In this document: positions 1-16,512 of the stretch, in pieces | How positions within the stretch are numbered: the stretch's first letter is position 1 | Layout of the letters: each line of letters opens with the position of its first letter | Position numbers and translations under genes: made by a program | Notes under the pieces: model-generated | The model's database searches: none | What the model saw: the letters and a program-made list of their open reading frames with translations, nothing else | Told to the model about the DNA's origin: nothing | Assembly (NCBI GenBank): GCA_949957035.1 | Contig: CATLIP010000011.1 | Location: 1-17,420, forward strand | Direction: 5' to 3' | Source of the DNA: an uncultured Lachnospiraceae bacterium | GTDB taxonomy: Bacteria; Bacillota_A; Clostridia; Lachnospirales; Lachnospiraceae | DNA length: 17,420 nt

Positions 1-325
1 GTAGGTCCCCGATATCGTAGGGCTTCACTAGATAATCGTCCGCCCCGTTGTCAAGTCCCGCAATCCGTTCTTCCACAGAATCGACAGCCGTTGCAAGGAT
101 AATCGGGGTATGGACATTATTTTCACGTATGATTTTAAGCAAGGCAATCCCGTCCATGCCAGGGAGCATCCGGTCTAAAATGATTAAGTCGTAGACCGAC
201 TGGCAGACGTAATAGAGTGCGTCAATCCCGCTGTGGACACAGTCGGATTCGATTCCATGGTGTTCAAACTGCAATTTCAATGTCTCACAAAGCTGTTCGT
301 CGTCTTCAATAATTAAAATACGCAT
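1..325 (-). CDS. Response regulator, OmpR/PhoB-like receiver domain (partial, C-terminus outside window)
   Basis: The minus-strand frame begins at ATG 325-323 with an AAGGGG ribosome binding site just upstream, and runs off the left edge after 108 residues. What is visible is a full receiver domain: acidic pocket E7-D8-D9, phospho-acceptor D51 in ILDRMLPGMDG, the conserved T79 and K101 in the LVKP motif. The LDNGADDYLVKPY context is typical of OmpR/VanR-type regulators that carry a winged-helix DNA-binding domain; that domain is not visible here. Its sensor kinase may be the next gene to the left. It is transcribed divergently from the solute-binding-protein operon, and the shared gap holds mirrored promoters with repeated boxes, so I infer that it regulates itself and that operon. 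The receiver call is firm; the output-domain class is inferred. Confidence 0.9.
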   Translation of the reverse strand, partial: MRILIIEDDEQLCETLKLQFEHHGIESDCVHSGIDALYYVCQSVYDLIILDRMLPGMDGIALLKIIRENNVHTPIILATAVDSVEERIAGLDNGADDYLVKPYDIGDL

Positions 326-357
326 GCTAAAAACCCCTTATATTAATAGATCCTTAG

Positions 358-443
358 GCATTATACCATAGAAATCTCAAAAAAATCTTTAAGATTTTTA
401 TAAGCCTCTCAAAGATTTTCCGAGATTTTATTGGTATCATAAT
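358..443. promoter_or_regulatory. Divergent mirrored promoters with candidate response-regulator boxes
   Basis: Rightward: AAAGATTTT (411-419), CC, GAGATTTT (422-429), AT, then extended -10 TGGTATCAT (432-440). Leftward, on the minus strand: AAAGATTTT (390-382), TTT, GAGATTTC (378-371), TA, then extended -10 TGGTATAAT (368-360). The two halves are almost the same sequence in opposite orientation. A further AAGATTTT lies at 391-398. Boxes within each half are 10-11 bp apart, and the upstream box sits at the -35 position, where no good TTGACA exists. That is the arrangement expected for activator-dependent promoters bound by an OmpR-type dimer. Box positions are seen; binding by the adjacent regulator is inferred. 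Confidence 0.7.
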
Positions 444-528
444 CCCAGGAGCTGTTAAAAAGCCGAAAGGGCAGCATTGCCGAGGGCATTTTACAGTGAA
501 AGAAAAACCAGAGTAAGGAGCAGCGCAT

Positions 529-2739
529 ATGAAAATGAAGAAAATATTCAGCCTTCTCATGGCGGCATCCCTCGCGGCAGGACTTGCTGCCGGCTGCGGG
601 AAGGACGGTACAGACGGCAAAAAAGACGGCGAAGTTTCCGCAAAGGGACGCTATGTAGAAGAAGAAATCCCCTTGCCGGAAGGGGCGGGGGAAGCCTTGG
701 GAATCCAGAATCAGGACGGCCACATAACCCTCTATGCCAGGAACGAAAACGACTACCACAGTTACATTTACGAAAACGAAGGGTGGACAGATTCCGGCAG
801 CCTTCCGTGGATGACGGACGCCCACGAAAGGCTTGGACTTCCGATTGACCACATTTATTACGGAAAAGACGGCGGTATATATGGAATGGCAATCCCCGCA
901 TCAGACGACGTGCCATACGGCCAGCATATCTTAAAAGACGCCGGAGACACAACCGCCCTGGACTGCACCCCCGCGCCATGCTTAGAAGTGAACGCAGAGG
1001 GGTGGACGGATTTACTTGTAGATATGGCAGTGCTAAAAAACGGCACCATGGTTCTTGTGAACATGGACGGCATGGTGAAATTCTATCAGAATGACAAGAA
1101 GATTTCAGAGATAACCGAAATCCTCCCTATCGTGTCCGACCACCAGCCTGTCATGGGAGTATCTGACGGGAGCATTGCCATATTCGGAAAAGACCGGCAG
1201 AGCGTTGATTTCTACGACCCGGAGAATTTTGAAAAAACAGAGAGCGTGGAAGTAAAGCAGGAACTTGAGGAATCCATGATTGTACCGGGAGAATCCGGTG
1301 TCTGGTATCTGGTGAACCGGAAAGGAATCCAGAGGCTTACCGAGCAGGGCAGTATCGTGGAAACGGTCATGGACGGAACCGGCGTGCTGCTGAGCATGGA
1401 TTCGGCGTATCTGACCAATTTCCTCTGGGGAAATAGCGGGGAATTCTACGGACTGTACCACATTGCCGAAGGCGGAGAAAGGCTTATGCGCTACCGTTAT
1501 GACGAGGACGTCAAAGCCGTCCGGGACAAGAGCCTAAGCATCTACGGGCTGAACGAAAACCAGACGGTCTCTCAGGCAATCTACACCTTCCAGAACCAGC
1601 ACCCCGAGGTCAAGGTAGATTACCACACAGCAGCAGGAAATGAGGATACGCCTGTCTCAGAGACAATCCGGACCCTGAACGCGGAGCTTTTGAACGGCGG
1701 CGGCGCAGACATCCTGATTCTGGACGGACTTCCGGCGGCGTCCTACATGGAAAAAGGGGTTCTGGCAGATTTATCGGATCTGGCAGGACGGCTCTCCCAG
1801 AAAGGTGTATTGATGAACTTGGTGGAAAATGCGGCAAGCCTTGACGGAAAGACCTACGCAGTCCCGGCAAGAGTCAGCCTGCCTGTGGTTTTCGGGGAGG
1901 ATGCGAAGGTAAATGCATGCCAGAATCCGGATGCGTTCCATACTTATCTGGAACAGAACCCGGGAGAGCGGCTGTTCGGGACTACCACCCATGAACTTGC
2001 GGGAATGACCTTATTCCATACATTTTACGAAGATTTGACGGAGGATGGGGGCGGTCTTAATGAGGAGAAGCTTGCGCAGTTTTTGAATGACTGGATGAAG
2101 CTGTGCGAGGTGCAGAACACAAGGGGAATCGAAGAAGAATATGGGGCAAATATCTGGAGTCAGATGCATACCCGGTTTAGCTCCGGCATGGGGCTAAAGA
2201 ACGACCCGGTGATGATTGAGGAAATAGGCGGCCTGATTTCATCCATGGTTCCCTATGCCCTGGCAAGGGAGGACGAAAAAACTCCGGGAAGCCTGAAGCA
2301 ATACTATATCCCTCAGGTAATCGCAGGGATCAACGCATCCTCCGGGCAGCAAGAGCTTGCGGCAGAATTTATTGAGTGCCTGTTCGACGAATCCGTCCAG
2401 AATGGCGACAATTCCGACGGTTTCCCGGTACTAAGGAGCGCCCTTTCCTATCAGGCGGACTATGTGGAGACTCCGGATGCGTTGAAACTGTGCGGCAGTT
2501 CGAGCGCAACCAATCCGGAAACAGGAGAAGAGGTAAGGGTCGAGGCGACATATCCCACAAAAGACGAGGTGAATCAGCTGATACAGATCATAGAAGGGCT
2601 GAATGTCCCGTTTATGGTGGACGGCATGGTTTCGGACACGGTTCTTATGGAGATGGAAAACTGTTACAGCGGCAAGCAGACCCCAGAAGAAACAGCAAAA
2701 GCAATCTGCCAAAAGATAGACACTTATCTTGCAGAATAG
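529..2739 (+). CDS. Extracellular solute-binding lipoprotein with N-terminal propeller-like domain
   Basis: This 736-residue secreted lipoprotein is about 300 residues longer than an ordinary CUT1 binding protein. Residues 1-23 are a lipoprotein signal peptide (KMKK, hydrophobic core, LAAGC) with C23 as the lipidated cysteine. Residues about 55-325 contain repeated beta-strand pairs ending in aromatic stretches (HIYYGKDGGIYGM, MVLVNMDGMVKFY, GSIAIFGKDRQSVDFYD, GVWYLVNRKG, GEFYGLYHI), which looks like a beta-propeller. Residues about 335-736 match a family 1-type solute-binding domain: SIYGLNENQTVSQAIYTFQNQHP, then ADILILDG, then LADLSDL. ATG 529 has TAAGGAG eight bases upstream. It is the first gene of the operon, followed after 10 bases by a permease. 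The ligand is unknown; the propeller may present or sense a polymer. Confidence 0.88.
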   Translation: MKMKKIFSLLMAASLAAGLAAGCGKDGTDGKKDGEVSAKGRYVEEEIPLPEGAGEALGIQNQDGHITLYARNENDYHSYIYENEGWTDSGSLPWMTDAHERLGLPIDHIYYGKDGGIYGMAIPASDDVPYGQHILKDAGDTTALDCTPAPCLEVNAEGWTDLLVDMAVLKNGTMVLVNMDGMVKFYQNDKKISEITEILPIVSDHQPVMGVSDGSIAIFGKDRQSVDFYDPENFEKTESVEVKQELEESMIVPGESGVWYLVNRKGIQRLTEQGSIVETVMDGTGVLLSMDSAYLTNFLWGNSGEFYGLYHIAEGGERLMRYRYDEDVKAVRDKSLSIYGLNENQTVSQAIYTFQNQHPEVKVDYHTAAGNEDTPVSETIRTLNAELLNGGGADILILDGLPAASYMEKGVLADLSDLAGRLSQKGVLMNLVENAASLDGKTYAVPARVSLPVVFGEDAKVNACQNPDAFHTYLEQNPGERLFGTTTHELAGMTLFHTFYEDLTEDGGGLNEEKLAQFLNDWMKLCEVQNTRGIEEEYGANIWSQMHTRFSSGMGLKNDPVMIEEIGGLISSMVPYALAREDEKTPGSLKQYYIPQVIAGINASSGQQELAAEFIECLFDESVQNGDNSDGFPVLRSALSYQADYVETPDALKLCGSSSATNPETGEEVRVEATYPTKDEVNQLIQIIEGLNVPFMVDGMVSDTVLMEMENCYSGKQTPEETAKAICQKIDTYLAE

Positions 2740-2749
2740 GTACAATCTT

Positions 2750-3595
2750 ATGAAGAAACAGGAACAGAAAACAGCATATCTGTTTTTGCTTCCAAGCCTT
2801 ACGGGAGCGGCGGTGTTCGTGCTGATACCGTTTGCAGACGTCATACGCCGTTCCTTCCTAAAGGCGGTGGGCAATACCTTCGTGGGAATTTCCAATTATC
2901 AGGAAGTGCTGGGAAACACCGCGTTCCAACAGGCGGCGACCCACACCTTACGGTTCTTGTGCATCTGCCTGCCGCTGCTTCTGGTACTCTCCTTTTGCGC
3001 TGCATGGATGCTCTACCGTCTTCCGGCGGCAAAGGCAGTGTTCCAGACCGTGTTCCTGCTTCCCATGGCTGTCCCGGTGGCATCCTTGGTGGTGTCCTGG
3101 AAAGTCATTTTCCATGGGAACGGACTCCTGAATGAGATGTTGGCGCTGTTTGGGAGAGAGGGCCAGGACTGGATGAATACGGATACGGCGTTCTGGGTAC
3201 TGGTATTTTCCTACCTGTGGAAAAACTTAGGGTACGATGTGGTGCTGTGGATTGCGGCGCTCTCAGAAGTGGGCGAAGAACAGTATGAGGCGGCAAGGGT
3301 AAGCGGGGCAGGGGCTTGGGCGTGTTTCTTTTATATCACACTGCCTCAGTTGAAACCGGGAATCGTCATGATTTTTGTGTTGTCCTTCGTCAATGCCTTC
3401 CGGGTGTTTCGGGAGGCATACCTGATTGCAGGAGATTACCCTCACGAAAGTATTTACATGTTACAGCATCTCTTCAATAACTGGTTCACGAAGCTGGATA
3501 TTCAGAAAATGAGCGCGGCGGCAGTGATGATGGCGGCAGCGGTCAGTATCCTTCTCTTCCTGTTGGAGCGGTGGAATGAAAGGCAGGAAACATAG
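2750..3595 (+). CDS. ABC sugar transporter permease, MalF/UgpA-like (CUT1)
   Basis: Integral membrane subunit of a CUT1-type importer, 282 residues with about six hydrophobic helices, starting with LFLLPSLTGAAVFVLIPFAD. The cytoplasmic EAA loop that docks the ATPase is at about 180-203 (YEAARVSGAGAW then FFYITLPQLKP). The usual Asp of the EAAxxDGA motif is Ser here. I start at ATG 2750, ten bases after the stop of the binding-protein gene; a TTG at 2729 in the same frame has no ribosome binding site. It pairs with the permease that follows directly, and the two should form the channel for the upstream lipoprotein. No ATP-binding gene lies in the operon, so a shared MsmK/MalK-type ATPase is the likely energy source. 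The substrate cannot be read from sequence. Confidence 0.93.
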   Translation: MKKQEQKTAYLFLLPSLTGAAVFVLIPFADVIRRSFLKAVGNTFVGISNYQEVLGNTAFQQAATHTLRFLCICLPLLLVLSFCAAWMLYRLPAAKAVFQTVFLLPMAVPVASLVVSWKVIFHGNGLLNEMLALFGREGQDWMNTDTAFWVLVFSYLWKNLGYDVVLWIAALSEVGEEQYEAARVSGAGAWACFFYITLPQLKPGIVMIFVLSFVNAFRVFREAYLIAGDYPHESIYMLQHLFNNWFTKLDIQKMSAAAVMMAAAVSILLFLLERWNERQET

Positions 3596-4441
3596 ATGCA
3601 CAAAAAATTTATACCAGTGTACGTAATACTAAGTATCGCAGGCCTGATTATGATTCTGCCCGTTCTCATGATGCTGAGTAATTCCATCATGGGCGGACAG
3701 GAATTAAAAGAGGCATACGGCGCCGTATTAGGCGGGGATACCGGGAAACTGTCGGCAAGGCTCCTTCCCGTCTATCCCACGCTTGCGCCCTATGTGGAGC
3801 TGCTTTTGGATTCCCCGGATTTCTTCGTGATGTTCTGGAACTCTGTAAAACAGGTCTTTTCCGTGATGTTGGGCCAGACGTTCGTTGGGACGATGGCGGC
3901 ATGGGCGTTCGCCAGATACGAATTTCGGGGCAGGAGACCACTGTTCCTCCTGTACATGATACTGATGGTTATGCCCTTTCAGGTGACGATGGTCTCAAGC
4001 TATTTGGTATTGTCCAAACTCTCCCTTTTGGATACCCATCTGGCAGTCATCCTTCCGGGAATCTTCTCTACATTTCCTGTATTCATCATGGAAAAATTTT
4101 TCCGTGCCATCCCCAAGGAAGTGTTCGAGGCGGCGAAAGTGGACGGCGCAGGAGAGTTTACCACCTTCCTGCGAATCGGGATACCCCTTGGAAGCCCGGG
4201 AATCATCTCCGCGCTGATTTTAAATTTTCTCGAATACTGGAACGCAGTGGAAGCGCCTATGACATTTTTAAAAACAAAATCCAAACTGCCCCTCTCCCTG
4301 TACCTGCCGGAAATCACCACAGACCAGATGGGCGTATCTTTCGTGGCGTCGGTGGTGATGATGCTTCCGGCGGTGCTGGGGTTCCTATGGGGAAGAGACT
4401 ACCTGCAAAAAGGGATTGAGGCGTCGGGGCTAAAGGAGTGA
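3596..4441 (+). CDS. Carbohydrate ABC transporter permease, MalG-like (CUT1)
   Basis: Second membrane subunit of the importer, 281 residues. The ATG follows the TAG stop of the previous gene directly (TAGATG), with AGGAAA upstream, so the two are translationally coupled. The N-terminal helix (about 8-28) is followed by an extracytoplasmic segment to about residue 75 and then five more hydrophobic helices. The EAA loop at 178-201 is canonical (FEAAKVDGAGEF then IGIPLGSP). The helix ending LLYMILMVMPFQVTMVSSYLVL is typical of MalG-type proteins. The final codons contain the ribosome binding site of the next gene. Family assignment is firm, substrate unknown. Confidence 0.94.
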   Translation: MHKKFIPVYVILSIAGLIMILPVLMMLSNSIMGGQELKEAYGAVLGGDTGKLSARLLPVYPTLAPYVELLLDSPDFFVMFWNSVKQVFSVMLGQTFVGTMAAWAFARYEFRGRRPLFLLYMILMVMPFQVTMVSSYLVLSKLSLLDTHLAVILPGIFSTFPVFIMEKFFRAIPKEVFEAAKVDGAGEFTTFLRIGIPLGSPGIISALILNFLEYWNAVEAPMTFLKTKSKLPLSLYLPEITTDQMGVSFVASVVMMLPAVLGFLWGRDYLQKGIEASGLKE

Positions 4442-4443
4442 CT

Positions 4444-5781
4444 ATGAAAAGAAAAATTTTGAACATCATCCTGTCATTTTTTATGGTGATGCTGTGCTGC
4501 ACACTGATTGCCCGGGGCGCGGCGTCCCTGACCGTGGCCAAGGTCAAGACGGAAGGGTTAAACCGCGGAAGTCTTGTAGAGGAATTTGATGGCGAGGGAA
4601 GCATAAAGGCAAAGGATAAGATATACCAGTCTCTTCCAGAAGGGCAGAAATTAGTGGATATTCTGGCTGAACCGGGGAGCGCGGTGCATGCAGGAGAAGG
4701 GCTTCTCCAGTTTGACTTAGGGTATTTGGAGGAAAAGCTTAACGCACAGGCACAGGAAATCGAGAAACTGAGATACCGCATGGAACAGCAAAGGCTTTCG
4801 GGTATCCCACAGGCGAGGACTCCGGCGACCGCACAGGCGGCCCTCTCGGTTGACGAGGCGGCAAAAGCTTTGGATGAAGCCCAGTACAATTATCAAATGG
4901 CACAGAATCAGTACGACGAGACGGCAGCCAGAATCCCTTCCGGTTCTGAGGAGGAAGATGTGGCGCTGAATGAAGAATTGCAGCGTCTTGAGGCAGAGAT
5001 AGACAATGCATACGCATCCTTTACGGCGGCACAGCGGGCGTATCAAACGGCAGAAGGGACGTACCAGATCGCCCAGCAGGACGAGGCAAACACTCAGGCA
5101 AATGAAGCCGCGGCTGGGGAGATTTCCCAGATGGCGCAAAATGAGATGCAGGTAGAGCTCACCGCATTGCAGAATGAAATGGATAAGACCGTAAGGCTCA
5201 AAGAAGCAAATGGGGTAGTAACTGCGCAGGCGGACGGCTTGTTTGAATCTGCCGGGGCGGCAGAGGGCAGCATCACCGCAGGGACAGAACAGATTACGCT
5301 GGTAGTGGGAAATGTAGAAGCCTGCGGCTTCATTCCGGACAATAAGATCGGGACGGTGGCGGCAGGAGACGAAATCCAGGTTACGGTTCAAGGAGAGACT
5401 AAGGCACAGACCCTTGAGATTGAACGAATCGGGCAGGACGAAGAAGGAAGATACGTCTGGTATGCGCCGCTTGCGGGAAACGCCTATCGTGTGGGAACAG
5501 GCGTGGCTTACCGGTATAGCAGGAAGTCAGAGAACAGCTACGAAACGCTGCTCCCTTTGACAGCTTTAAGGGAATCGGGAGGAAGCAGCTATATCCTGAC
5601 GGCAGAGATGAAACCGGGCATTTTAGGCGAGTCCTATACGGCAGTGAAGGTCAATGTCACCGTCCTTGAAAAGGACGACTACTCGGTGGCCGTGGAAACG
5701 AATCTGCCCAAGGATGCAAAAATCATCACAGAATCCAGTAAATATGTGAAAGAGGGTGACAGGGTACGTTTAAGCGAATAA
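4444..5781 (+). CDS. HlyD/MacA-like membrane-fusion (adaptor) protein
   Basis: A 445-residue protein with one N-terminal membrane helix (about 5-25) and the rest outside the membrane. Domain order fits efflux adaptors. A first half lipoyl-like motif lies at about 50-95 (GEGSIKAKDKI, ILAEPGSAVHAGEGLLQF). A long charged alpha-helical coiled-coil hairpin rich in Ala, Gln and Glu spans about 95-250. The second lipoyl half follows (VTAQADGLFESAG), then beta-barrel strands (ACGFIPDNKIG, GDEIQVTVQG), and a C-terminal membrane-proximal region ends KYVKEGDRVRL. Start: ATG 4444 has AAAGGAG at 4432-4438; an in-frame GTG at 4438 overlaps that site and is less likely. Such adaptors normally partner MacB-type exporters, and the next gene is MacB-like. 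Its presence behind two CUT1 permeases is unusual. Confidence 0.82.
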   Translation: MKRKILNIILSFFMVMLCCTLIARGAASLTVAKVKTEGLNRGSLVEEFDGEGSIKAKDKIYQSLPEGQKLVDILAEPGSAVHAGEGLLQFDLGYLEEKLNAQAQEIEKLRYRMEQQRLSGIPQARTPATAQAALSVDEAAKALDEAQYNYQMAQNQYDETAARIPSGSEEEDVALNEELQRLEAEIDNAYASFTAAQRAYQTAEGTYQIAQQDEANTQANEAAAGEISQMAQNEMQVELTALQNEMDKTVRLKEANGVVTAQADGLFESAGAAEGSITAGTEQITLVVGNVEACGFIPDNKIGTVAAGDEIQVTVQGETKAQTLEIERIGQDEEGRYVWYAPLAGNAYRVGTGVAYRYSRKSENSYETLLPLTALRESGGSSYILTAEMKPGILGESYTAVKVNVTVLEKDDYSVAVETNLPKDAKIITESSKYVKEGDRVRLSE

Positions 5782-5798
5782 AACCATATCTGGCATAT

Positions 5799-6812
5799 AT
5801 GTTCCGGTTGGCCTTCTTAGGCATCGGAATCGGGGCGGCGCTTGGATTTTATGCTAGGCTTGCCGGGATAGAGGGACAAATCGGCTTTTACTATTCAGAA
5901 AAGCTGCTGGCCAGAGAGCAGATTGACGGGTTCTGGGAACAGGCTTCCGATGACGCAAAACGAGAGATAAGGGACCTGGCACTGTTTCAGGAATCCAAGG
6001 GAAAGGTCTTAAAAAACGAAGATCTGAACCGGGAAACCAAGGTAAAACTGGTGGAGACGGCAGGCAGCATGAATCTGGTGATGCCGGGCAGACTGTGTGC
6101 AGGAACCTTTGTGACGGACAGTGATTCTAAAGGCTGTGTCGTAAGCAAAAAAACGGCAGATACCTTGTTCGGCTCTGTTGAGGCGCTCGGTGAGCAGCTT
6201 ACCCTTGGGAAGGACACCTATATTGTCCGGGGGATTGTGGAGACGGAGGGGCAGCTCTGTATGATTCAGGGAGAAAAGGGACGGGCATACTCCTGTATCC
6301 GAATCGAGGCTCCGGGCATCCCCCTGTCCGTGGTGCGTCAAAGGCTTACAGGGATTCTTCAGGAAGGAAAAGGATGGGTTTCAGAATGTGACCTGTATCT
6401 GGGGATTGGCAGGATCTTTCTGTATCTGCCTCTGTGGGTCATGCTGTTTTTGGCATTGGGCCGTATGGGGAAGCTGCTGCCGGAAATGTTTCGATTCGTG
6501 ACACCGATCGTGGGTTTTGGGGGCGTATGCGCCCTGCTGCTTTTGAGCCTGCATTTTTCCGACGATTATGTGCCGTCTGCATGGTCAGATTTTTCGTTCT
6601 GGACAGCGCTTATTGATGAGAAGAAGCAGGCGTTTTTCTCCCTTCTGAACCATCCTCTTTATGATGCAGATTCCCGGATGCTGGGAAGCCTGGCGGGAAT
6701 CTTGGCGGCGGCTGTTCTCCTATGCCTGATTGTCCTGAAATCCGGACCGTTGGTCGTTTTTAAGAAGTCCGGTTGCGAAATCGAGAAAAATTTACAAACA
6801 AGAACTCCATAG
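5799..6812 (+). CDS. MacB-like permease (periplasmic core domain with four membrane helices), no ATPase
   Basis: A 337-residue membrane protein. One helix (3-22) is followed by an outside domain (about 25-200) and three helices (about 205-222, 233-252, 295-314), the MacB/FtsX order TM1-domain-TM2-TM3-TM4. Residues 98-148 carry the typical core-domain pattern: RLCAGTFVTD, then CVVSKKTADTLFG, ALGEQLTLGKDTYIVRGIVE. The loop between TM2 and TM3 is only about ten residues (GRMGKLLPEM), shorter than expected for coupling to an ATPase. The start is doubtful: ATG 5799 has no ribosome binding site. The frame is open back to 5760 and encodes FKRIKPYLAY just before the first helix, while GAGGG lies at 5753-5757. 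A non-ATG start or coupling to the upstream stop at 5781 is possible. It probably works with the adjacent adaptor. Confidence 0.66.
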   Translation: MFRLAFLGIGIGAALGFYARLAGIEGQIGFYYSEKLLAREQIDGFWEQASDDAKREIRDLALFQESKGKVLKNEDLNRETKVKLVETAGSMNLVMPGRLCAGTFVTDSDSKGCVVSKKTADTLFGSVEALGEQLTLGKDTYIVRGIVETEGQLCMIQGEKGRAYSCIRIEAPGIPLSVVRQRLTGILQEGKGWVSECDLYLGIGRIFLYLPLWVMLFLALGRMGKLLPEMFRFVTPIVGFGGVCALLLLSLHFSDDYVPSAWSDFSFWTALIDEKKQAFFSLLNHPLYDADSRMLGSLAGILAAAVLLCLIVLKSGPLVVFKKSGCEIEKNLQTRTP

Positions 6813-6817
6813 ACCCA

Positions 6818-6868
6818 TGTTAAAATAGAATATGTGGCTGGCATCAGATAACATAAGACGGGAAGAGG
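6818..6868 (+). promoter_or_regulatory. Probable extended -10 promoter and ribosome binding site for murT
   Basis: TGTTAAAAT at 6818-6826 reads as an extended -10, about 50 bases before the murT start. No clear -35 lies 17 bases upstream, as is common for extended -10 promoters. GAAGAGG at 6862-6868 is the nearest ribosome-binding-like run, rather far from ATG 6882. This could uncouple murT-gatD from the upstream operon; read-through cannot be excluded because no terminator is visible in the 69-base gap. Confidence 0.4.
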
Positions 6869-6881
6869 AAACGCAACGAGT

Positions 6882-8228
6882 ATGAAACTACGCAGTATGG
6901 CTGCCGTCTGGGCGGCGAAAATAACAGAAAAGGTCTGTGTCCGTATCTTTCACAGGCAGGGCGTCACATGGGCGGGAAAGATTGCCCTCCTCATCAGCCC
7001 CACGATCCTTTCGGAACTTGCAGGACAGGTGAGGCAGGGGATTTTTGCCGTATGCGGGACCAACGGTAAGACGACCGTGAACAACCTGCTTAGCGGCGCG
7101 CTAAAGGCAGAGGGGTACGGCGTAATCTGCAACCAGACAGGCTCTAATATGTTAAATGGCGTTGCGGCTGCGTTCGTCCTTGGGGCGTCGGCAGACGGAA
7201 GCCTTCACGCAGATTATGCCTGTATCGAGATCGACGAAGCGTCAGCACGGGAAGTATTCACACATTTCAAACCAAGCCATATGGTACTCACCAATCTGTT
7301 CCGGGATCAGTTGGACCGGTATGGGGAAATCGACACCACCATGGATATCCTGAACAAAGCGATACAATCTGCTCCACAGATGAAGCTCATCGTAAACGGG
7401 GACGATCCTCTGTCTGTGTCCCTTGCATTGGACAGCGGCAGGGATTACGTGACATATGGAATCAGCGAGTGCGTACATACAGGCAGACAGATACAGGAGA
7501 TCCGGGAAGGAAGATTCTGCCGATACTGTGGGGCTAGGCTTACCTACCGTTTCTACCATTACGGGCAACTTGGGGACTACCGCTGTCCGGGCTGCGGATT
7601 TGAAAGGCCCAAACCAGACTTTGCCGGAAGGAATGTAGAGATGGAAGGCGGACTTTCCTTTACGGTGGGCGGGAAATGGTTTCATTCATCCCAGCGCGGC
7701 TTCTATAACGTATATAATATCCTTGCTGCATATGCCGCAATCCGTGCGTCAGGGCTAAAGGCAGGGAATTTCCGGAAAGCCCTCTCTGATTTCTGCCCGG
7801 AAAACGGGCGGATGGAGGAATTTTGGGCGGGCGATATCAGAATTGTATTGAATCTAGCAAAGAATCCCACAGGATTCAACCAGAACATTGACGTGATGAT
7901 GCAGGACGAGCGGCACAAAGACCTGGTGGTGGCGGTCAACGATAACGAGCAGGACGGCACGGACATTTCCTGGCTTTGGGACGTAGATTTTGAGCGGATT
8001 GCGGGGATGGAAGGTACTTTTGTCACGGTCAGCGGAATCCGCTGCCAGGATTTGATGCTTAGGCTTAAATACGCAGGGATACAGGCGGAACTTGAACCGG
8101 ATGTGGAGAAAGCCGTGTACAGGCACATAGCGCAGGGGAGCAAGAACCTGTATGTTCTTGTGAATTACACAGCTCTTTATGATACCCGAAATCTTTTGAA
8201 GCGTATATGCGGGGAGGGACACAGATGA
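6882..8228 (+). CDS. murT: Lipid II isoglutaminyl synthase (glutamine-hydrolysing), Mur-ligase-like subunit MurT
   Basis: MurT forms a complex with GatD that amidates the alpha-carboxyl of D-glutamate in lipid II stem peptides, using ATP and ammonia from GatD. In the 448-residue protein the ATP-binding P-loop GTNGKTT is at 59-65. The central Mur ligase domain contains IEIDEASAREVF and LTNLFRDQLDRYGE. A Cys4 zinc ribbon, the family hallmark, is inserted at 213-238 (CRYC and CPGC). The C-terminal MurT domain carries LNLAKNPTGFNQN (about 323-335) and the acidic DGTDISWLWDVDFE stretch (358-371). Length and domain order match characterised Gram-positive MurT. The stop overlaps the gatD start at ATGA, as in most genomes with this pair. 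Confidence 0.96.
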   Translation: MKLRSMAAVWAAKITEKVCVRIFHRQGVTWAGKIALLISPTILSELAGQVRQGIFAVCGTNGKTTVNNLLSGALKAEGYGVICNQTGSNMLNGVAAAFVLGASADGSLHADYACIEIDEASAREVFTHFKPSHMVLTNLFRDQLDRYGEIDTTMDILNKAIQSAPQMKLIVNGDDPLSVSLALDSGRDYVTYGISECVHTGRQIQEIREGRFCRYCGARLTYRFYHYGQLGDYRCPGCGFERPKPDFAGRNVEMEGGLSFTVGGKWFHSSQRGFYNVYNILAAYAAIRASGLKAGNFRKALSDFCPENGRMEEFWAGDIRIVLNLAKNPTGFNQNIDVMMQDERHKDLVVAVNDNEQDGTDISWLWDVDFERIAGMEGTFVTVSGIRCQDLMLRLKYAGIQAELEPDVEKAVYRHIAQGSKNLYVLVNYTALYDTRNLLKRICGEGHR

Positions 8229-8995
8229 GGACGGCATCAGATATGAAGATTACCATTGGGCATCTCTACCCGGATTTGCTGAACCTGTACGGAGACCGGG
8301 GAAATGTGGCGTGTATGATGAAACGGTGTCTCTGGCGGGGAATCCAGGCGGAGACCATCGAGTTCAATACCGGAGATTCGATAGATTTCGGGAAACTTGA
8401 CATCGTACTCTTAGGAGGAGGTTCTGACAGGGAGCAGATGATTGTCTGCCAGAATTTAAAGAGGATACGTGAGGCGTTCCGGGACTATGTAGAAAATAAC
8501 GGCGTCGTGATTGCAGTCTGCGGCGGTTATCAGCTTCTCGGGAAATATTATCAGACAGACGCCGGAAGAATAGAAGGACTTTCCCTGCTTGATATCTACA
8601 CAGAGCAGGGGGAGGGGCGGATGATTGGGAATATTATCCTTAGGAGCGAGCTGTCCGATATCCCGGTAGTGGGATTCGAGAACCATGGGGGACGAACCTA
8701 TATTAACGGCTGCCGTCCTTTCGGGAGAGTCTTGTACGGCGGGGGCAACGACGGAAAAAGCGGTTTCGAGGGGGTTGTCTATAAAAATGTAATCGGAACC
8801 TACCTCCACGGGCCCCTTCTTCCGAAAAATTCCCGGATATGCGACTGGCTGATTGAAAAGGCGCTCAGGAGAAAATATGGCCCGGTCAGGCTTACGGAAT
8901 TGGATGACAGGCTGGAGAGGCTGGCGAACGCTTATATCTGCCGGAGATTCCTAAAAAAGAAACTGGCTAGGGCGAACATAATGACCGAAAATTAA
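8225..8995 (+). CDS. gatD: Lipid II isoglutaminyl synthase, glutamine amidotransferase subunit GatD
   Basis: GatD hydrolyses glutamine and channels ammonia to MurT for amidation of lipid II at D-Glu. The protein is a class I (triad-type) glutaminase fold of 256 residues. The nucleophile C99 lies in VVIAVCGGYQLLG and the catalytic histidine H195 in IGTYLHGPLLPKN. The N-terminus ITIGHLYPDLLNLYGDRGN is the typical GatD/CobQ-like opening. I start at ATG 8225 because GGGGAGGG at 8211-8218 sits at the right distance and the ATG overlaps the murT stop; an in-frame ATG at 8207 lies before that site. Downstream, the stop is followed after four bases by the 3' end of a tRNA gene on the other strand. 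Confidence 0.96.
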   Translation: MRTASDMKITIGHLYPDLLNLYGDRGNVACMMKRCLWRGIQAETIEFNTGDSIDFGKLDIVLLGGGSDREQMIVCQNLKRIREAFRDYVENNGVVIAVCGGYQLLGKYYQTDAGRIEGLSLLDIYTEQGEGRMIGNIILRSELSDIPVVGFENHGGRTYINGCRPFGRVLYGGGNDGKSGFEGVVYKNVIGTYLHGPLLPKNSRICDWLIEKALRRKYGPVRLTELDDRLERLANAYICRRFLKKKLARANIMTEN

Positions 8996-8999
8996 AAAA

Positions 9000-9085
9000 C
9001 GCAGCGGGAGGGATTTGAACCCCCGGAGCCTTGCGGCTCTTCTGCTTTCGAGGCAGATGCCATCAGCCAACTCGACCACCGCTGC
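9000..9085 (-). tRNA. tRNA-Ser (anticodon CGA)
   Basis: The minus-strand sequence folds as a class II tRNA. The seven-base acceptor stem is GCAGCGG with CCGCTGC, and the discriminator is G at 9000, as expected for serine. The anticodon stem TCTGC/GCAGA closes loop CTCGAAA, giving anticodon CGA for codon UCG. The long variable arm is GAGCC-GCAA-GGCTC, and the T arm reads GGGGGTTCAAATCCCTC. CCA is not encoded; the discriminator is followed by six T, which may serve as the transcript end. It lies head-on to gatD, whose stop is four bases away. Confidence 0.97.
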
Positions 9086-9094
9086 ATATCTGAC

Positions 9095-9100
9095 ATTATA
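9095..9100 (-). promoter_or_regulatory. -10 box of the tRNA-Ser gene
   Basis: A perfect TATAAT on the minus strand lies ten bases before the tRNA 5' end, so transcription would start about three bases ahead of the mature end. No good TTGACA is found 17 bases upstream; the stretch there reads TTCCCTC. Confidence 0.6.
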
Positions 9101-9181
9101 ACACAACTACCTACTGTGAGGGAATACCCAAATTAAAATTTTTTACAGAACGAACATCTGATAGTTTGGAAGCAAGAAAGG

Positions 9182-9208
9182 AGACCTGTGCGTATGCACA
9201 GGTCTTTT
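9182..9208 (+). terminator. Stem-loop terminator, probably of the murT-gatD transcript
   Basis: AGACCTGTGC (9182-9191) pairs perfectly with GCACAGGTCT (9196-9205) around a GTAT loop and runs into TTTT. It is the first terminator-like structure after gatD on the plus strand, so the gatD transcript would have to read across the tRNA in antisense to reach it. The T-tract is short. It could instead end a small RNA starting after 9100. Confidence 0.55.
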
Positions 9209-9465
9209 GGAGGGGGATGAAAAAATCTATCTAAATTTTAACTTATTGTTAGTCGAAGCCCGGTAATCATACCTTACTCGAATATGTAATGTGAAGTACG
9301 ACTACCGTCTTCTTTTATGTGATGAATTTATTATATAAAACAATTGTGACACAAGTATGTCAAAAACTGGAAATGTTTATAAAATTTCTTAAGAAAAACA
9401 TAAGACGACCTAAAAATTTCAGGTTTTACCGGTTAATGTATAGTTAATGTATAGACGAAAACAGG

Positions 9466-9494
9466 TTGACGGGGGACAAATAGATTGGTAAAGT
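9466..9494 (+). promoter_or_regulatory. Promoter of the AraC-family regulator gene
   Basis: TTGACG (9466-9471) and TAAAGT (9489-9494) are separated by 17 bases, giving a start near 9501 and a leader of about 70 bases. The tandem repeat TTAATGTATAG x2 ends 11 bases before the -35, a suitable place for an activator or autoregulator. The AAAAGG ribosome binding site is at 9555-9560. Confidence 0.6.
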
Positions 9495-9570
9495 AAATAT
9501 AGAGTTTGAAATTAAGGTAAGTGAAAATCTGCTGTATAAATTTTTGAGATACTAAAAAGGATAACATGCT

Positions 9571-10509
9571 ATGTCTAAGAAGAGAAAACCAAAGATAGAC
9601 TTTCGGTATTACAAGATGCCGGAGGGCAGTCCAATCCTTGCGCTTCTGGGACAAAAATGGGTACAGTCCTACGGGCGGGACGTTGATTATCTGCATTTTC
9701 ATAACTATTTGGAGATTGGGTATTGCTACGAGGGAGAAGGGACACTTACGCTGGGAGAGAGGGACTACCGATATAACGGAGGAGAGGTGTCGATTATTCC
9801 CAAAAATTACCCACATACAACGAACAGTGACCCGGGGACGATTAGTAAATGGGAGTATCTGTTTGTAGATGTGGAGGGACTTCTCGAAGAGCTGTACCAA
9901 AAAGGCGGCAACATAAAACGTATGAAGTATCTGCTTCACAGAATCAACTCGCAGGCAATCTTTCGGGCAATCGAAGAGGCCCCGGGGATTGCGAAGATGA
10001 TTCGGGGAATCCTTGATATTATGCGGGATACGAAGGAGTTTTACATAGAGGAAGCAAAAGGTCTCATGGTGTCGCTTTTGGTGTGCATTGCCCGGGAGAA
10101 TCCGGATGAGAATGGACCGGTGGAGATAAGCGGAAAGATTACAATTCCCGTCTCACGGGCGCTGGACTATATTACACTCCACTATATGGAACCTTTGAAA
10201 GTAGAGGATTTGGCCAGATGGTGCCACATCAGCGAAACCCATTTCAGGAGGGTATTCTCTACATATATGCATATGGGACCACTGGAATACATCAATTTGG
10301 TACGGGTACAGACAGCATGTAATTATTTGAAGAATACAGATGAATCTATGGCAGACATTGCGGGGAAATGCGGTTTTACAACGCTGTCAACCTTTAACAG
10401 GAATTTTAAACAGGTTACGGGCGTATCGCCAAGCGAATGGCGGAAACGGCCGGAAAATTATGAACAGCAATTGCTGAAATACTGGATTCATTCGGAGGAA
10501 GGGTGGTAG
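9571..10509 (+). CDS. AraC-family transcriptional regulator with N-terminal cupin sensor domain
   Basis: A 312-residue one-component regulator. Residues about 36-85 form a cupin-like effector domain (YLHFHNYLEIGYCYEGEGTL, then GGEVSIIPKNYPHTT) of the kind that binds sugars. The C-terminal AraC DNA-binding domain carries two helix-turn-helix motifs, at about 211-231 (VEDLARWCHISETHFRRVFS) and 259-282 (SMADIAGKCGFTTLSTFNRNFK), followed by TGVSPSEWRKR. No signal peptide, so cytoplasmic. It lies tail-to-tail with the second sugar operon and is the closest complete regulator, so control of that operon is plausible but not shown. Its own promoter and terminator make it a single-gene unit. Start ATG 9571 has AAAAGG at 9555-9560. 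Confidence 0.93.
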   Translation: MSKKRKPKIDFRYYKMPEGSPILALLGQKWVQSYGRDVDYLHFHNYLEIGYCYEGEGTLTLGERDYRYNGGEVSIIPKNYPHTTNSDPGTISKWEYLFVDVEGLLEELYQKGGNIKRMKYLLHRINSQAIFRAIEEAPGIAKMIRGILDIMRDTKEFYIEEAKGLMVSLLVCIARENPDENGPVEISGKITIPVSRALDYITLHYMEPLKVEDLARWCHISETHFRRVFSTYMHMGPLEYINLVRVQTACNYLKNTDESMADIAGKCGFTTLSTFNRNFKQVTGVSPSEWRKRPENYEQQLLKYWIHSEEGW

Positions 10510-10556
10510 CAGGTCAGGCGCACCTTTTAGAGGGCGGGAAGATGATTTAGACACAG

Positions 10557-10608
10557 AATCCTCAGTGTGAGGGGGAAAACCACATTCCCTCTCACACTGA
10601 GGATTTTT
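10557..10608 (+). terminator. Strong stem-loop terminator of the AraC gene, possibly bidirectional
   Basis: A 21-bp stem (10557-10577 with 10585-10605, one G-T wobble) closes a seven-base loop AACCACA; bases 10604-10608 form a T5 tract overlapping the stem end. On the minus strand the same stem lies just after the acetyltransferase stop at 10618, but is followed by only a weak T-tract, so it serves the AraC transcript best and may also end the operon coming from the right. Confidence 0.86.
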
Positions 10609-10617
10609 CTAACCGCA

Positions 10618-11121
10618 CTATCGAATTTCAAGAGTCAGTATATAATCATCCATTACAAACCCGTTCCCAATATCTGCTGTCTGCTCGTCTGTAATTACGA
10701 ATCCCAGATGGTCATACACAGCCAGCGTATTTTCATTGTGCTTGTTGCAGGTCAGCCAAATTTTCTTAAGTCCCCGCTCCTTACACAACTCAATCAGAAA
10801 ATTAAGAGCTTGTGTTGCAAGATGCTGTCCGCGGCAGTCTTTCTTTATGTACAGCTTGCTTAAAAACAGAGAATCCGTCTCCGGATGAATACCCATATAA
10901 CCGGCTAAGGTGTGTGAGCTGAATAACTGGTAGTATTCGTAACCCTCCCGCTCGATTTGTTCCCGGAGGGCAGGATAAGACTGAAACTTGTCTACCATGT
11001 AATTCACCTGCGCCTCTCCGATGATAGGAGTAAAGTGCTGGCTCCAGATTTCTTCCGCCAGATTGGCAATTTCGTGGATTTCAGAGTCGGATTTCGCCGG
11101 AATTATGTCTGCTGTATTCAT
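10618..11121 (-). CDS. GNAT-family N-acetyltransferase
   Basis: A 167-residue cytoplasmic acetyltransferase that would transfer acetyl from acetyl-CoA to an amine. The acetyl-CoA-binding motif is CRGQHLATQALNFL (about 96-109) after the strand LFLSKLYIKKD, and the second signature NTLAVYDHLGF is at 131-141. I place the start at ATG 11121 because AAAGGAGG lies eight bases upstream; a longer in-frame start at 11151 has no ribosome binding site. Only 42 bases separate it from the zinc-ribbon gene, with no terminator between, so it is probably the last gene of the sugar operon. The substrate is unknown: a protein N-terminus, an amino sugar or a small amine are all possible. If operon membership matters, an amino sugar fits best, but that is inference. 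Confidence 0.85.
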   Translation of the reverse strand: MNTADIIPAKSDSEIHEIANLAEEIWSQHFTPIIGEAQVNYMVDKFQSYPALREQIEREGYEYYQLFSSHTLAGYMGIHPETDSLFLSKLYIKKDCRGQHLATQALNFLIELCKERGLKKIWLTCNKHNENTLAVYDHLGFVITDEQTADIGNGFVMDDYILTLEIR

Positions 11122-11163
11122 GTTGGGCCTCCTTTTGTAATTGTTTAGCATCAGGCTTGTCTT

Positions 11164-11382
11164 TTAATCAAAATCAAACTTTGTATATCTGGTATTCATC
11201 GCCCCATACCGCGTCCTGACCATCTCATTCTTCGCCAGCACATCCTCTTCGGTTCCCGTATACTGGCATCTGATACAGTAATACTCTTTCTTATCCTTAT
11301 CATAAAACATATCAATATCCAGATCCCGCATAAAGCAGGAAGGACATCTATAATTTAATCTGCCTTTTCCAGATTGAGCCAT
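11164..11382 (-). CDS. Small zinc-ribbon protein of unknown function
   Basis: A 72-residue protein with one predicted zinc ribbon: CPSC at about residues 13-16 and CIRC at 37-40, separated by an acidic DIDMFYDKDKKEYY stretch. After it comes a charged tail ending in MNTRYTKFDFD. AAGGAG lies about 11 bases before ATG 11382. The first 28 bases overlap the end of the hydrolase-like gene in another frame, so the two are translationally coupled. No membrane segment or signal. The fold resembles zinc ribbons of transcription or RNA-binding proteins, but there is no other recognisable domain and I do not assign a function. A 72-residue frame with two Cys pairs and a proper ribosome binding site is unlikely to be chance. 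Confidence 0.75.
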   Translation of the reverse strand: MAQSGKGRLNYRCPSCFMRDLDIDMFYDKDKKEYYCIRCQYTGTEEDVLAKNEMVRTRYGAMNTRYTKFDFD

Positions 11383-13187
11383 GTCGCAAACATCTCCTTA
11401 TCCCTTATTTTTTTCTTATATCCGAATGTGAACATGGGAGAGAACGCATATCCTTCCCGGATATACCCTTCCGCCTCCGAAGAAGCCGTCATAGAAACCT
11501 TGGTCTCAATCGCCGGAACCACGGCAGAAACAGCCGACGCGCCTTTAAGACTCTCTTCACGGCAGCGATACTCATATACGATTTCCTTCGGCTCACTTCC
11601 TTCACAGGTAAGCGTAATCCCCGTCATATCCTCCGGATATTCCGTCGTCCCATAACAAGCCACCAGATACTCGTTCAGCTCGACTTCGGCAGACGGATCA
11701 CTCATCTCAAGGACAGAACGTTCAATTTTAATCGAACCGCTTCCCTCCTCAAAATATTCCTTCGTCTGCAGCGTCAGGGACAGCCCGGCAAATTCAATCG
11801 TCACAGGGTCAAGGGTTAGGATTCTGCTCGTCCCCTCCTGAGAAAAATGCGCCTTCGTACGGCACAGGCACAGATCCACTTCCTCACCCTGGTAACTGAG
11901 CTTCGCACTGCGGATCGTCCCTTCCCCCGCATAATGGGTAAAATATCCTGCCCGGTATTTCTCCTGAATCAAGAAGGGATAGGAGGCGTCCTGTACATGC
12001 TTCGTCCCAATGCCGACCTGCCACTTAAGTTTCGCTGCATAGGGGCGCAGATCAAAAATGGCGCCGCCCTGGTCCATGCTGACCCCGGCCCTCATATAGG
12101 GATCGGTATACCAGAACACCTGCTTGTCAGAACCATAGAGAATATCCCGCCACAGTGCGCATTCCGGCTCCTTGTAGGTCTTCTTCTGGCGGTAGTAGTC
12201 TGCAAATTCAGACATGGTCATATCGATGAGCTTTCCCTCTTTCTTCAAATCGCCGTAATATTTACATCCATCTGAATAGGATTTCAGCAGCAGCTCATAG
12301 GGAGCCTCCCAACGCCCCATCTTATTCATCCATCCGGGCCCGACGAACATCATCTTGTAAGCATATCCATTATTATATTTTTCCTGCGCACGGTACTGGT
12401 CGATAAGATTATAGAGGTAAGGAAATTCCCAAGTCTTGGTATCGTATATCATCCCCCTGAGCACATTCTGAGGATGAGTGCCGAAGTTAGAGCCATTCCC
12501 GTCGTAACATGCCAGCAGATCCCTTGACAGATGGGGGATAGCCACAATTCCGCTGTCCTCAGATTCATCCGCTGCCGGTGCATGGGTATTCTGCTTAGAG
12601 GGAATCCAAGGCGCCCACGGACCGCCGTCGAACAGCGTATACCATGAGTTGTTGCAGGTGTGGTAGGCTTTGGGGCCTTCCTCCCAACACGTAGCAATGG
12701 CACATTTTACGGAAGGATAAGTCTCCTTGATATAATTTGTCAGGTCCGCGTCCATATAGTAGGATCCGGTAGATTCCGGGTAAAATCCAAAAATATCGTG
12801 GAATTTGCCAAACACATCATCTACAATTCGTTTCTTGTCCTCCATGGAGAACATCCAGATGCAGAAATCCTTCGTCTTATATTTTTCTCGAAATTCCTCA
12901 CAGGGAAGTCCAAGAAGGGAGAGAGCGATTTCATCTCCGTATACTTCATGGTCGTTCTTCGCAATTGCCACTGCTTCTTCGTTAAACAGGGCGGCGTAGG
13001 TCATATGGATTGTGACCTTCAACCCATTCTCATGGGCAAGCCTCTGCTGGGTCTTGAAAATATCCAGAGATTCTGTCAGAAGTTTTTTGTCTCCGATATC
13101 CTCCTCTTTGCCGTGTCCCGTGACGGTCGCGGAATACTCCGGGACCATCTCGGGACGATGGATTACATTCAGAATAAATTCACTCAT
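11355..13187 (-). CDS. Glycoside hydrolase/deacetylase-like protein of the sugar operon
   Basis: A 610-residue protein without signal peptide, so it should act in the cytoplasm on imported substrate. The N-terminal half looks like a (beta/alpha) barrel of the glycoside hydrolase/deacetylase superfamily: GLKVTIHMTYAALFNEE (55-71), NDHEVYGDEIALSLLG (78-93), then FGKFHDIFGFYPESTGSYYMDADLTNYI and VKCAIATCWEEG (126-171). NDHEVYGDEIAL resembles the GHEIG region of deacetylase-like barrels. From about residue 400 the protein is mostly beta strand. From memory it resembles DUF3863/DUF3864 proteins known from Bacteroidetes structures; I could not test this. ATG 13187 has AGGAGA eight bases upstream. 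It follows the two permease genes and overlaps the zinc-ribbon gene. Processing of the transported oligosaccharide is the natural reading; the reaction is unknown. Confidence 0.7.
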   Translation of the reverse strand: MSEFILNVIHRPEMVPEYSATVTGHGKEEDIGDKKLLTESLDIFKTQQRLAHENGLKVTIHMTYAALFNEEAVAIAKNDHEVYGDEIALSLLGLPCEEFREKYKTKDFCIWMFSMEDKKRIVDDVFGKFHDIFGFYPESTGSYYMDADLTNYIKETYPSVKCAIATCWEEGPKAYHTCNNSWYTLFDGGPWAPWIPSKQNTHAPAADESEDSGIVAIPHLSRDLLACYDGNGSNFGTHPQNVLRGMIYDTKTWEFPYLYNLIDQYRAQEKYNNGYAYKMMFVGPGWMNKMGRWEAPYELLLKSYSDGCKYYGDLKKEGKLIDMTMSEFADYYRQKKTYKEPECALWRDILYGSDKQVFWYTDPYMRAGVSMDQGGAIFDLRPYAAKLKWQVGIGTKHVQDASYPFLIQEKYRAGYFTHYAGEGTIRSAKLSYQGEEVDLCLCRTKAHFSQEGTSRILTLDPVTIEFAGLSLTLQTKEYFEEGSGSIKIERSVLEMSDPSAEVELNEYLVACYGTTEYPEDMTGITLTCEGSEPKEIVYEYRCREESLKGASAVSAVVPAIETKVSMTASSEAEGYIREGYAFSPMFTFGYKKKIRDKEMFATWLNLEKAD

Positions 13188-13215
13188 TTTTCAATCTCCT
13201 ATTATATAATAATAT

Positions 13216-13256
13216 GTCCGGCATGTACACCGCTTTTATGGGAGAACATACCGGAC
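13216..13256 (-). repeat. Inverted repeat between malG-like and hydrolase genes
   Basis: GTCCGGCATGT (13216-13226) pairs with ACATACCGGAC (13246-13256): 11 bp with one G-U wobble, and a 19-base loop. It sits in the 127-base gap of the operon. On the minus strand it is followed by an AT-rich run and then the hydrolase ribosome binding site. It could be an RNA processing or stabilising hairpin, a partial terminator, or a DNA operator for an internal promoter. Confidence 0.55.
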
Positions 13257-13314
13257 CTTTATACCCTCATTCACAGACGCTATGCTATGGAGAGGAATTT
13301 TTGTTTTTGACAGC

Positions 13315-14145
13315 TTACTTGACTGCGCCGGTGATACCTTCTGCAAACTGTTTCTGCAATACAAAGAATACGACCATTGTAGGAATGGAACAGAAAAGTA
13401 CGCCGCACATTAACATACCATAATCGGTAACATAACCTGTGATCAGATTGGCAATCAGCATCGGCATAGTAATAGAATTATTGTCCGTCATGATTACCTT
13501 CGGCCACAGATAAGCGTTCCATGCATTCATGAATGTAATAACCGCCGCCGCCGCATAGGTAGATCTCATCGTCGGGAAGAACATGCGGAAGAAAATCTGC
13601 ACTTCGTTCAGTCCGTCAATACGTGCCGCTTCAATGATGTCAATAGGAAATGCTCTTGCATTCTGCCGGAACATCATGATCATGAATGGCGTTGAGATCA
13701 TGGGAAGGATAAATCCAAGAGTACAGTTCAGAAGCCTTGCTTTCGAGAACATCTGAAACAACGGAACCATTGTTGCTACCTGCGGAACCATCATGGCAAG
13801 AAGCAGTATGGAGAATAATTTATCTTTCCATTTATCATGGTAAATCTCAAAACCGTAACCTGCTATGGAGCAGATCAGCAGACACACAATCGTTGTGACA
13901 ATCGCATACAGGAAAGAATTACCCAGCGCGCGCCACAAAGGCTGCTGAGACAATAAGTTGTTAAAATTCTCCATGAAGTGTGAACCCGGGAGAATCCGCC
14001 CTCTGGATACCTCCGTAGAAGTATTGGTCGCCGCCGCTATCATCCAGTACAGCGGAAATACTGAAACGATGGATACAATTGTAAGGAAAATATATGTAGG
14101 AATCAGTCTGCGCTGAATCATACTTTTGTTCTTTTTCTCAGTCAC
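13315..14145 (-). CDS. Carbohydrate ABC transporter permease, MalG-like (CUT1)
   Basis: Second membrane subunit of the leftward importer, about 276 residues with six hydrophobic helices. The EAA loop at about 172-195 (IEAARIDGLNEVQ then FFPTMRS) and the helix ILLLAMMVPQVATMVPLF are typical of MalG-type permeases. The start is a GTG. I prefer GTG 14145, which has GAAAGTAGGTG upstream; the frame is open to a GTG at 14154 that overlaps the AGGTG site itself. With this start it overlaps the end of the malF-like gene by eight bases (GTGACTGA), so translation is coupled. The substrate is not deducible. Confidence 0.94.
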   Translation of the reverse strand: MTEKKNKSMIQRRLIPTYIFLTIVSIVSVFPLYWMIAAATNTSTEVSRGRILPGSHFMENFNNLLSQQPLWRALGNSFLYAIVTTIVCLLICSIAGYGFEIYHDKWKDKLFSILLLAMMVPQVATMVPLFQMFSKARLLNCTLGFILPMISTPFMIMMFRQNARAFPIDIIEAARIDGLNEVQIFFRMFFPTMRSTYAAAAVITFMNAWNAYLWPKVIMTDNNSITMPMLIANLITGYVTDYGMLMCGVLFCSIPTMVVFFVLQKQFAEGITGAVK

Positions 14146-15037: not shown

Positions 15038-15097
15038 GAAGAAGCCCCCTTTCTGCTTGGTATCTATACCGCGGAAGGTATATTTTTAGAATATAAA

Positions 15098-15120: not shown

Positions 15121-15135
15121 GTATAACCGACGCTT

Positions 15136-16473: not shown

Positions 16474-16512
16474 AATCTTTATCCTCCTTTTGATTAATTA
16501 CTTTATGCTCGT

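Follow-up and report, generated by a model that had tools for sequence, protein, structure and literature searches.

Why would a sugar importer be encoded together with the adaptor and the membrane core of an exporter, and with no ATPase gene beside them? The question is posed by five genes in a 17,420-nucleotide stretch of DNA from an uncultured Lachnospiraceae bacterium (assembly GCA_949957035.1, contig CATLIP010000011.1, positions 1 to 17,420 of the forward strand), the whole of which we call the window. The genes encode a solute-binding lipoprotein, two CUT1 permeases (A and B), a MacA/HlyD-like adaptor and a MacB-like protein. Judging from sequence comparison, we propose that the CUT1 oligosaccharide importer, the MacA-like adaptor and the ATPase-less MacB core would work as one machine, powered by a shared MsmX-like ATPase; we put the probability of this reading at roughly 0.62.

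529..6812, forward strand: the whole unit, as read from the open reading frames (solute-binding lipoprotein, CUT1 permeases A and B, adaptor, MacB-core gene)
529..2739, forward strand: lipoprotein solute-binding protein, 736 residues (SBP_bac_8, 27.2 bits, cut-off 27)
2750..3595, forward strand: CUT1 permease A, UgpA-like, with an EAA loop (BPD_transp_1, 60.1-60.2 bits; UgpA, 87.2 bits, below cut-off)
3596..4441, forward strand: CUT1 permease B, GlcU/UgpE/MalG-like, with an EAA loop (BPD_transp_1, 55.5 bits)
4444..5781, forward strand: MacA/HlyD-like adaptor (profile matches to MacA structures; AAAGGAG precedes the ATG at 4444)
5799..6812, forward strand: MacB-core protein without an ATPase domain (MacB_PCD, 30.8 bits, cut-off 27)

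The open reading frames start at positions 529, 2750, 3596, 4444 and 5799 and are separated by 10, 0, 2 and 17 bases. No ABC (ATP-binding cassette) ATPase was found among the 13 window proteins scanned against Pfam. Both observations agree with an earlier note, made from the letters of the window, which had described five tightly spaced genes joining importer parts to an adaptor and a MacB-like protein without an ATPase. Beyond that note, we find a divergent OmpR-type response regulator and an all-beta, propeller-like N-terminal domain in the binding protein. In the literature searched, in part narrowly, we found no publication describing CUT1 permeases together with a MacA/MacB pair.

Recurrence of the gene set

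With the MacB-like protein as a single query, matches were obtained in 50 of 299 Lachnospiraceae genomes, and the adaptor adjoins the MacB-like gene in all 30 short loci around the best matches. A profile of 36 members detects the MacB-like protein in 39 of the 299 genomes at E<=1e-20. Outside the Lachnospiraceae, matches of at least 220 bits number three in a class sample of 391 genomes (G592, G460 and G575) and none in a phylum sample of 299, where many weaker matches correspond mainly to the core that MacB proteins share. The profile of the adaptor detects more: 112 of the 299 Lachnospiraceae genomes match at E<=1e-20. At the stricter E<=1e-35, the class sample yields 9 matching genomes of 196, three of which are Lachnospiraceae, and the phylum sample 4 of 199, two of them Lachnospiraceae. 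Scoring in these profile searches was confined to some five to seven preliminary candidates in each genome.

A census of 98 loci, with open reading frames taken as longest-frame calls, yielded 99 runs containing an adaptor or a MacB-like gene: 87 linked to CUT1 genes, five true MacAB units and seven partial runs (L065, L066, L067, L098, L129, L139 and L141). All 87 CUT1-linked runs hold the adaptor and both permeases; the MacB-like gene is present in 78 and missing from nine (one of which, L130, ends at a contig end), and the binding protein lies within the run in 79. They represent 75 genomes and 71 genera (65 of these Lachnospiraceae), with the genera counted from a typed list and the locus type labels partly assigned from a list. 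The true MacAB units (L123, L125, L127, L128 and L136) have a LolD-type ATPase beside the adaptor and no CUT1 permeases. Thus the joint recurrence across genera that the earlier note had called for is observed, and the arrangement it had set against its proposal, homologues beside a MacB ATPase and away from CUT1 genes, accounts for only five of the 99 runs. The proportion of 87 in 99 is not an unbiased population rate, because the fetched loci were mainly the stronger adaptor matches and the weaker ones, more likely to be true MacAB, were left out.

The gene order permutes while the set stays together. In the layout of the window, the binding protein is followed by permease A, permease B, the adaptor and the MacB-like protein. 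In another, the MacB-like gene precedes the permeases, either as binding protein, lipoprotein, adaptor, MacB, A, B and ATPase (L047, L051) or as two binding proteins, adaptor, MacB, A and B (L089, L096). The third, which we call the second type, runs from permease A and permease B through the adaptor and a MacB-like protein with two transmembrane (TM) helices to a second binding protein. Neighbouring adaptor and MacB genes are spaced by 50 bases or less in 78 of 84 cases, and permease B and adaptor in 73 of 84. Across 77 complete loci, the divergence of the adaptor and MacB-like protein correlates with that of the permeases at r 0.82-0.85; the values are 0.71-0.78 with the binding protein (70 loci) and 0.38-0.60 with the neighbouring two-component pair (42-47 loci). 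L144, a near copy of L113, was excluded from this comparison.

Some layouts have features of their own. Between binding protein and adaptor, L047 and L051 carry an extra small open reading frame with a lipoprotein-like start (171 and 211 residues); the one in L051 has weak DUF5666/DUF6550 matches. Units of the second type (L104, L113, L116, L121, L122 and similar) often lie amid housekeeping-like genes, for example phosphotransacetylase/acetate kinase-like and polymerase-like frames, whose N-termini were read by eye. These surroundings suggest a core role for the second-type unit in Lachnospiraceae.

The MacB-like protein and the source of energy

The MacB-like protein has the layout of MacB: TM1, the periplasmic core and three more TM helices, the last external loop carrying a conserved stretch of IPxxWSDFxFW type. 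The folds of the adaptor and MacB-like pair match MacA and MacB/YknZ, and the predicted model has a MacB-like topology. The difference lies in the TM2-TM3 region. The motifs GGxGxMN, ERTxEIG and RxALGA are present in all five ATPase-paired MacB proteins and in none of the 80 CUT1-linked MacB-like proteins. Among members with a YPYWE motif, 24 of 25 have only two predicted TM helices, and this two-TM branch has no TM2-TM3 loop to carry a coupling helix. One species named among the matches to the two-TM form is Lachnotalea glycerini, which can be cultured.

Where an ATPase is contiguous with a CUT1-linked unit, it is of the importer type. This is the case in four of 87 units (L047, L051, L142 and L143), and all four ATPases are of UgpC type, with scores of 432.3 (L051, barely above the cut-off of 432), 447.5, 504.1 and 467.7. 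An ATPase similar to that of L051 is encoded outside the unit in all 18 carrier genomes tested, which were hand-picked and include the genome nearest to the window, G001 (best match E<=3e-98); it may stand alone there or be part of another importer. In the 87 CUT1-linked loci no MacB-type ATPase comes closer to the adaptor than 2.4 kb, and one stands beside the adaptor or MacB gene in only five of all 99 runs. Other ABC ATPases occur within six genes on the same strand in nine runs (L050, L060, L070, L113, L114, L117, L124, L126 and L144); from their place in the run, we take them as other systems. ABC ATPases were recognised by a motif or by their resemblance to either of two query sequences. 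An arrangement of this kind has precedent: one report describes at least seven importers without an ATPase gene in B. subtilis, six of them energised by MsmX (PMC7658222).

The first idea of the earlier note, that the adaptor and the MacB-like protein may hand a polymer or glycopeptide to the importer or sense it, is supported as far as the link of both proteins to the importer goes; the hand-over or sensing itself would be a further, hypothetical step. The earlier note had offered a second possibility, a two-part envelope response driven by shared ATPases. Its shared-ATPase half fits, given the UgpC/MsmX-like ATPases in 18 of 18 genomes and the four contiguous ones. A separate response is less likely, since none of the 80 CUT1-linked MacB-like proteins keeps the motifs of ATPase-paired MacB. 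That the adaptor and the MacB-like protein are parts of the CUT1 importer system is, we consider, well supported.

The adaptor, the binding protein and the permeases

The adaptor consists of an N-terminal TM helix, a split lipoyl-like part flanking a helical hairpin of 168 residues, and a C-terminal part ending in EGDRVRLSE. A profile of its family finds structures of membrane fusion proteins, MacA among them (4dk0, E=1.3e-13). In a tree of 91 adaptors, from which the seven partial runs and one row of fewer than 300 residues were excluded, the five MacAB adaptors separate from the 86 CUT1-linked ones at 100% SH-aLRT, a quick method used with no bootstrap. Eight of the nine units without a MacB-like gene form one nested group, and therefore the adaptor can persist after loss of MacB.

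The hairpin is the variable part of the molecule. It spans 94-493 residues (median 248) in CUT1 units with a MacB-like gene, 153-278 in those without and 183-213 in the five MacAB adaptors; the C-terminal part is nearly constant in CUT1 units (185-214 residues). The hairpin is low in proline and glycine (median 3.7% versus 10.1%), and in 35 of 91 adaptors its heptad periodicity was matched by at most 5 of 200 shuffles. An arm of about 240 residues would extend about 36 nm as an ideal helix (0.15 nm per residue), and the thickness of the Gram-positive wall is of the same order.

The binding protein has two regions. Residues ~333-736 form a CUT1-type oligosaccharide-binding fold, which a structure search with the model of the protein places with MalE-like proteins and YesO, the importer type. 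Residues ~39-329 are all-beta; because the C-terminal domain filled that search, their assignment as propeller-like rests on secondary structure and WD40 sequence matches. An alignment of 33 binding proteins shows striking conservation of LDGLPxxSYxEKGxLxDLSD: D394, L412 and a C-terminal glutamate are invariant, and D399, Y406, G410 and D414 are conserved in at least 90% of rows. By analogy with maltose-binding protein, we take the LDGLPxxSYxEKG stretch to face the ligand cleft, and its conservation may hint at one ligand in common or at a fixed docking surface.

Permease B scores below the cut-offs of the curated models GlcU (80.4 bits), UgpE (70.3) and MalG (65.3). Its EAA loop is well kept across the 87 units (D in 85, G in 86, P in 87).

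A proposed mechanism and its weak points

In the mechanism we propose, a CUT1 importer would have acquired an adaptor of export type and, in the majority of lineages seen, also a MacB core deprived of its ATPase. The lipoprotein with its propeller would bind an oligosaccharide and deliver it to the two permeases, and an ATPase of UgpC/MsmX type, whose gene lies elsewhere or, in certain lineages, within the operon, would bind the EAA loops and power uptake. The MacB-like protein would not pump but would provide a membrane-anchored dock for the adaptor. The helical hairpin of the adaptor would reach into the thick cell wall, where it might guide or present the glycan, or hold the binding protein at the importer. 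From the folds, it is likely that the unit imports a glycan; a wall-spanning adaptor that guides the glycan is our hypothesis. Control of the window-type unit would probably lie with the divergent two-component system, acting on a repeat between the diverging genes.

A stronger version, which we regard as tentative and as having a modest chance of being correct, is import through an export-type conduit. Here, use of ATP by MsmX at the CUT1 permeases would move the adaptor assembly via the ATPase-less MacB core, and a wall-spanning MacA-like tube or coiled-coil arm, tuned in length (~94-493 hairpin residues), would draw a polymer across the Gram-positive wall towards the permease.

Several observations weigh against the one-machine proposal. 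The window adaptor scores below curated cut-offs (HlyD_2, 12.4 versus 25.1 bits; RND_mfp, 30.2 versus 94.9 bits), and 21 of 86 MacB-like sequences, three of them ATPase-paired MacB, have neither family motif. The EAA loop of permease A is often degenerate (G in 65 of 87, the final P in 57 of 87); it is degenerate in L142 as well, yet L142 has an ATPase. Shared history inflates all of the divergence correlations. Some ABC ATPase lies within the fetched stretch in 28 of 87 loci, of LolD/MacB type in six, at 2.4-9.1 kb from the adaptor, and a MacB-type ATPase could conceivably act from nearby in those six loci. The propeller and the hairpin could serve binding or sensing instead of guiding. Finally, no glycan-degrading enzyme family recurs near the unit among the neighbour clusters of the 87 loci, so the sugar substrate rests on the fold of the binding protein. 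A polysaccharide-utilisation locus is not supported: no catabolic cluster exceeds six of 87 loci, with neighbours clustered as a set and not scanned singly for glycoside hydrolases. In the surroundings of L137 there is one GH9 cellulase, and in L143 a D-Ala-D-Ala carboxypeptidase-like protein (L143:12415-13485; Peptidase_S11, 163 bits) stands directly upstream of the unit with its own UgpC ATPase.

Alternative explanations

Might the unit sense rather than transport? An importer, adaptor and MacB-like complex could pass on to the divergent kinase a signal from the cell wall or from a glycan, with transport secondary, much as BceAB reports to BceS in sensing modules of that kind. The genes upstream of the unit bear on this idea.

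2..325, reverse strand: OmpR-family response regulator, its first 108 residues, the gene being cut by the window edge (Response_reg, 92.4 bits)
374..388, forward strand: operator-like repeat ATCTCAAAAAAATCT, two ATCT half-sites 11 bases apart (exact match, in the divergent intergenic region between regulator and binding protein)

In L031, a near-identical locus of Lachnospiraceae bacterium isolate B50_50_CF_H, the response regulator (Response_reg and Trans_reg_C) is followed by a histidine kinase of 449 residues (HisKA and HATPase_c); a scan of genome contigs with the window adaptor as query matched this locus alone. Kinase and regulator are the commonest neighbours of units of the window's type, each in 38 of 48 loci, and among the nine units without a MacB-like gene the regulator is found in six and the kinase in five. 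The repeat ATCTCWAAAAAATCT, allowing up to two mismatches, occurs in 18 of 30 intergenic regions between regulator and binding protein, versus 11 of 527 other regions and 0.27% of 1500 shuffled ones, the pattern having been defined by eye on part of the sequences later counted; the OmpR-type regulator may bind these 11-base-spaced half-sites. After the two-component genes, ABC ATPases of mixed kinds rank next (24 loci), and no other neighbour cluster, catabolic ones included, exceeds six of 87 loci. A sensory role would also suit the strong conservation around LDGLPxxSYxEKG. In the second type, however, kinase and regulator are each present in just three of 30 loci, and therefore the complex works there without an adjacent kinase. 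The permeases retain their EAA loops and some units have their own UgpC ATPase, which also speaks for transport. We consider a primarily sensory unit unlikely.

A second alternative is two machines in one operon, in which the adaptor and MacB-like protein would be a YknXZ-type detoxification complex that uses a MacB-type ATPase in trans and is merely co-regulated with the importer. The folds, and a pairing as in MacA and MacB/YknZ, favour it. A LolD-type ATPase also lies within six genes in L114 and L126, not beside the adaptor, and the six at 2.4-9.1 kb include that of L125, which belongs to a second, true MacAB unit. These points are outweighed, in our judgement, by the missing ATPase-pairing motifs (0 of 80, against 5 of 5), by the two-TM branch without a loop for a coupling helix and by the nine units that have the adaptor and no MacB-like gene. 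We rate separate machines as distinctly unlikely.

It is very improbable that the CUT1 permeases run in reverse and send an envelope glycan out through the adaptor. The adaptor is an export-type part, but a binding protein accompanies 79 of 87 units, that of the window has an importer fold, and the ATPase is of UgpC type wherever one is present in the unit. We know of no CUT1 exporter. A fortuitous or decaying cluster is scarcely credible: a few copies seem broken, with the adaptor split in L061 and the binding protein in L034, for instance, unless these are assembly errors, but the set is held in 87 of 99 runs, in 71 genera and in three gene orders, and on these counts chance adjacency is rejected.

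Other features of the window

Downstream of the unit lie further genes.

6882-8995, forward strand: MurT and GatD, the lipid II amidation pair (clear by Pfam; below the NCBIfam equivalog cut-offs)
8999-9086, reverse strand: tRNA-Ser(cga), directly past GatD
11355-13187, reverse strand: protein of 610 residues behind the second permease set (no Pfam match at E<=0.01)
13315-16473, reverse strand: a second, ordinary CUT1 locus (binding protein by Pfam and two permease-like frames)

MurT/GatD starts 69 bases 3' of the MacB-like gene. A functional tie to the unit was rejected, as only L031 among the 98 loci has the pair. Scans for terminators and promoters gave chance-level results only. In the second CUT1 locus one permease-like frame is similar to permease A, and no adjoining ATPase gene was seen; the 610-residue protein is possibly an undescribed glycan enzyme.

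Comparison with known systems

According to a 2015 review (PMC4446572), the tasks of adaptors in Gram-positive bacteria have to go beyond linking up with an outer-membrane channel, and in some cases their function is hard to establish. Here such adaptors are tied to sugar importers and to a motor-less MacB core in dozens of genera, mostly Lachnospiraceae. This suggests that an export scaffold has been recycled for import through the cell wall. If so, parts of tripartite exporters can turn into accessory subunits of importers, the passage of glycans through a thick wall gains a concrete hypothesis, and the label 'ABC transporter permease' on these genes misleads.

Three known systems resemble the unit in part. 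BceAB-BceRS likewise places a MacB-superfamily ABC permease beside an OmpR-type two-component system. BceAB has its own ATPase, whereas the window unit has a sugar-importer ABC core, no ABC ATPase among the scanned window proteins and a MacB-like topology in the predicted model. MacAB/YknWXYZ efflux (PMC5985334) shares the MacA-like adaptor adjoining a MacB periplasmic core, with the same folds; the family of the window unit differs in having no adjoining MacB-type ATPase, no ATPase-pairing motifs, only two TM helices in one branch, and genes joined to an importer. The CUT1 importers of B. subtilis that have no ATPase of their own and are energised by MsmX (PMC7658222) share with the window unit two BPD_transp_1 permeases, a MalE/YesO-fold binding protein and the lack of an adjoining ATPase gene, and a similar ATPase is encoded elsewhere in the genomes tested. 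What sets the window unit apart from these importers is the adaptor, the MacB-core subunit and the N-terminal propeller-like domain of its binding protein.

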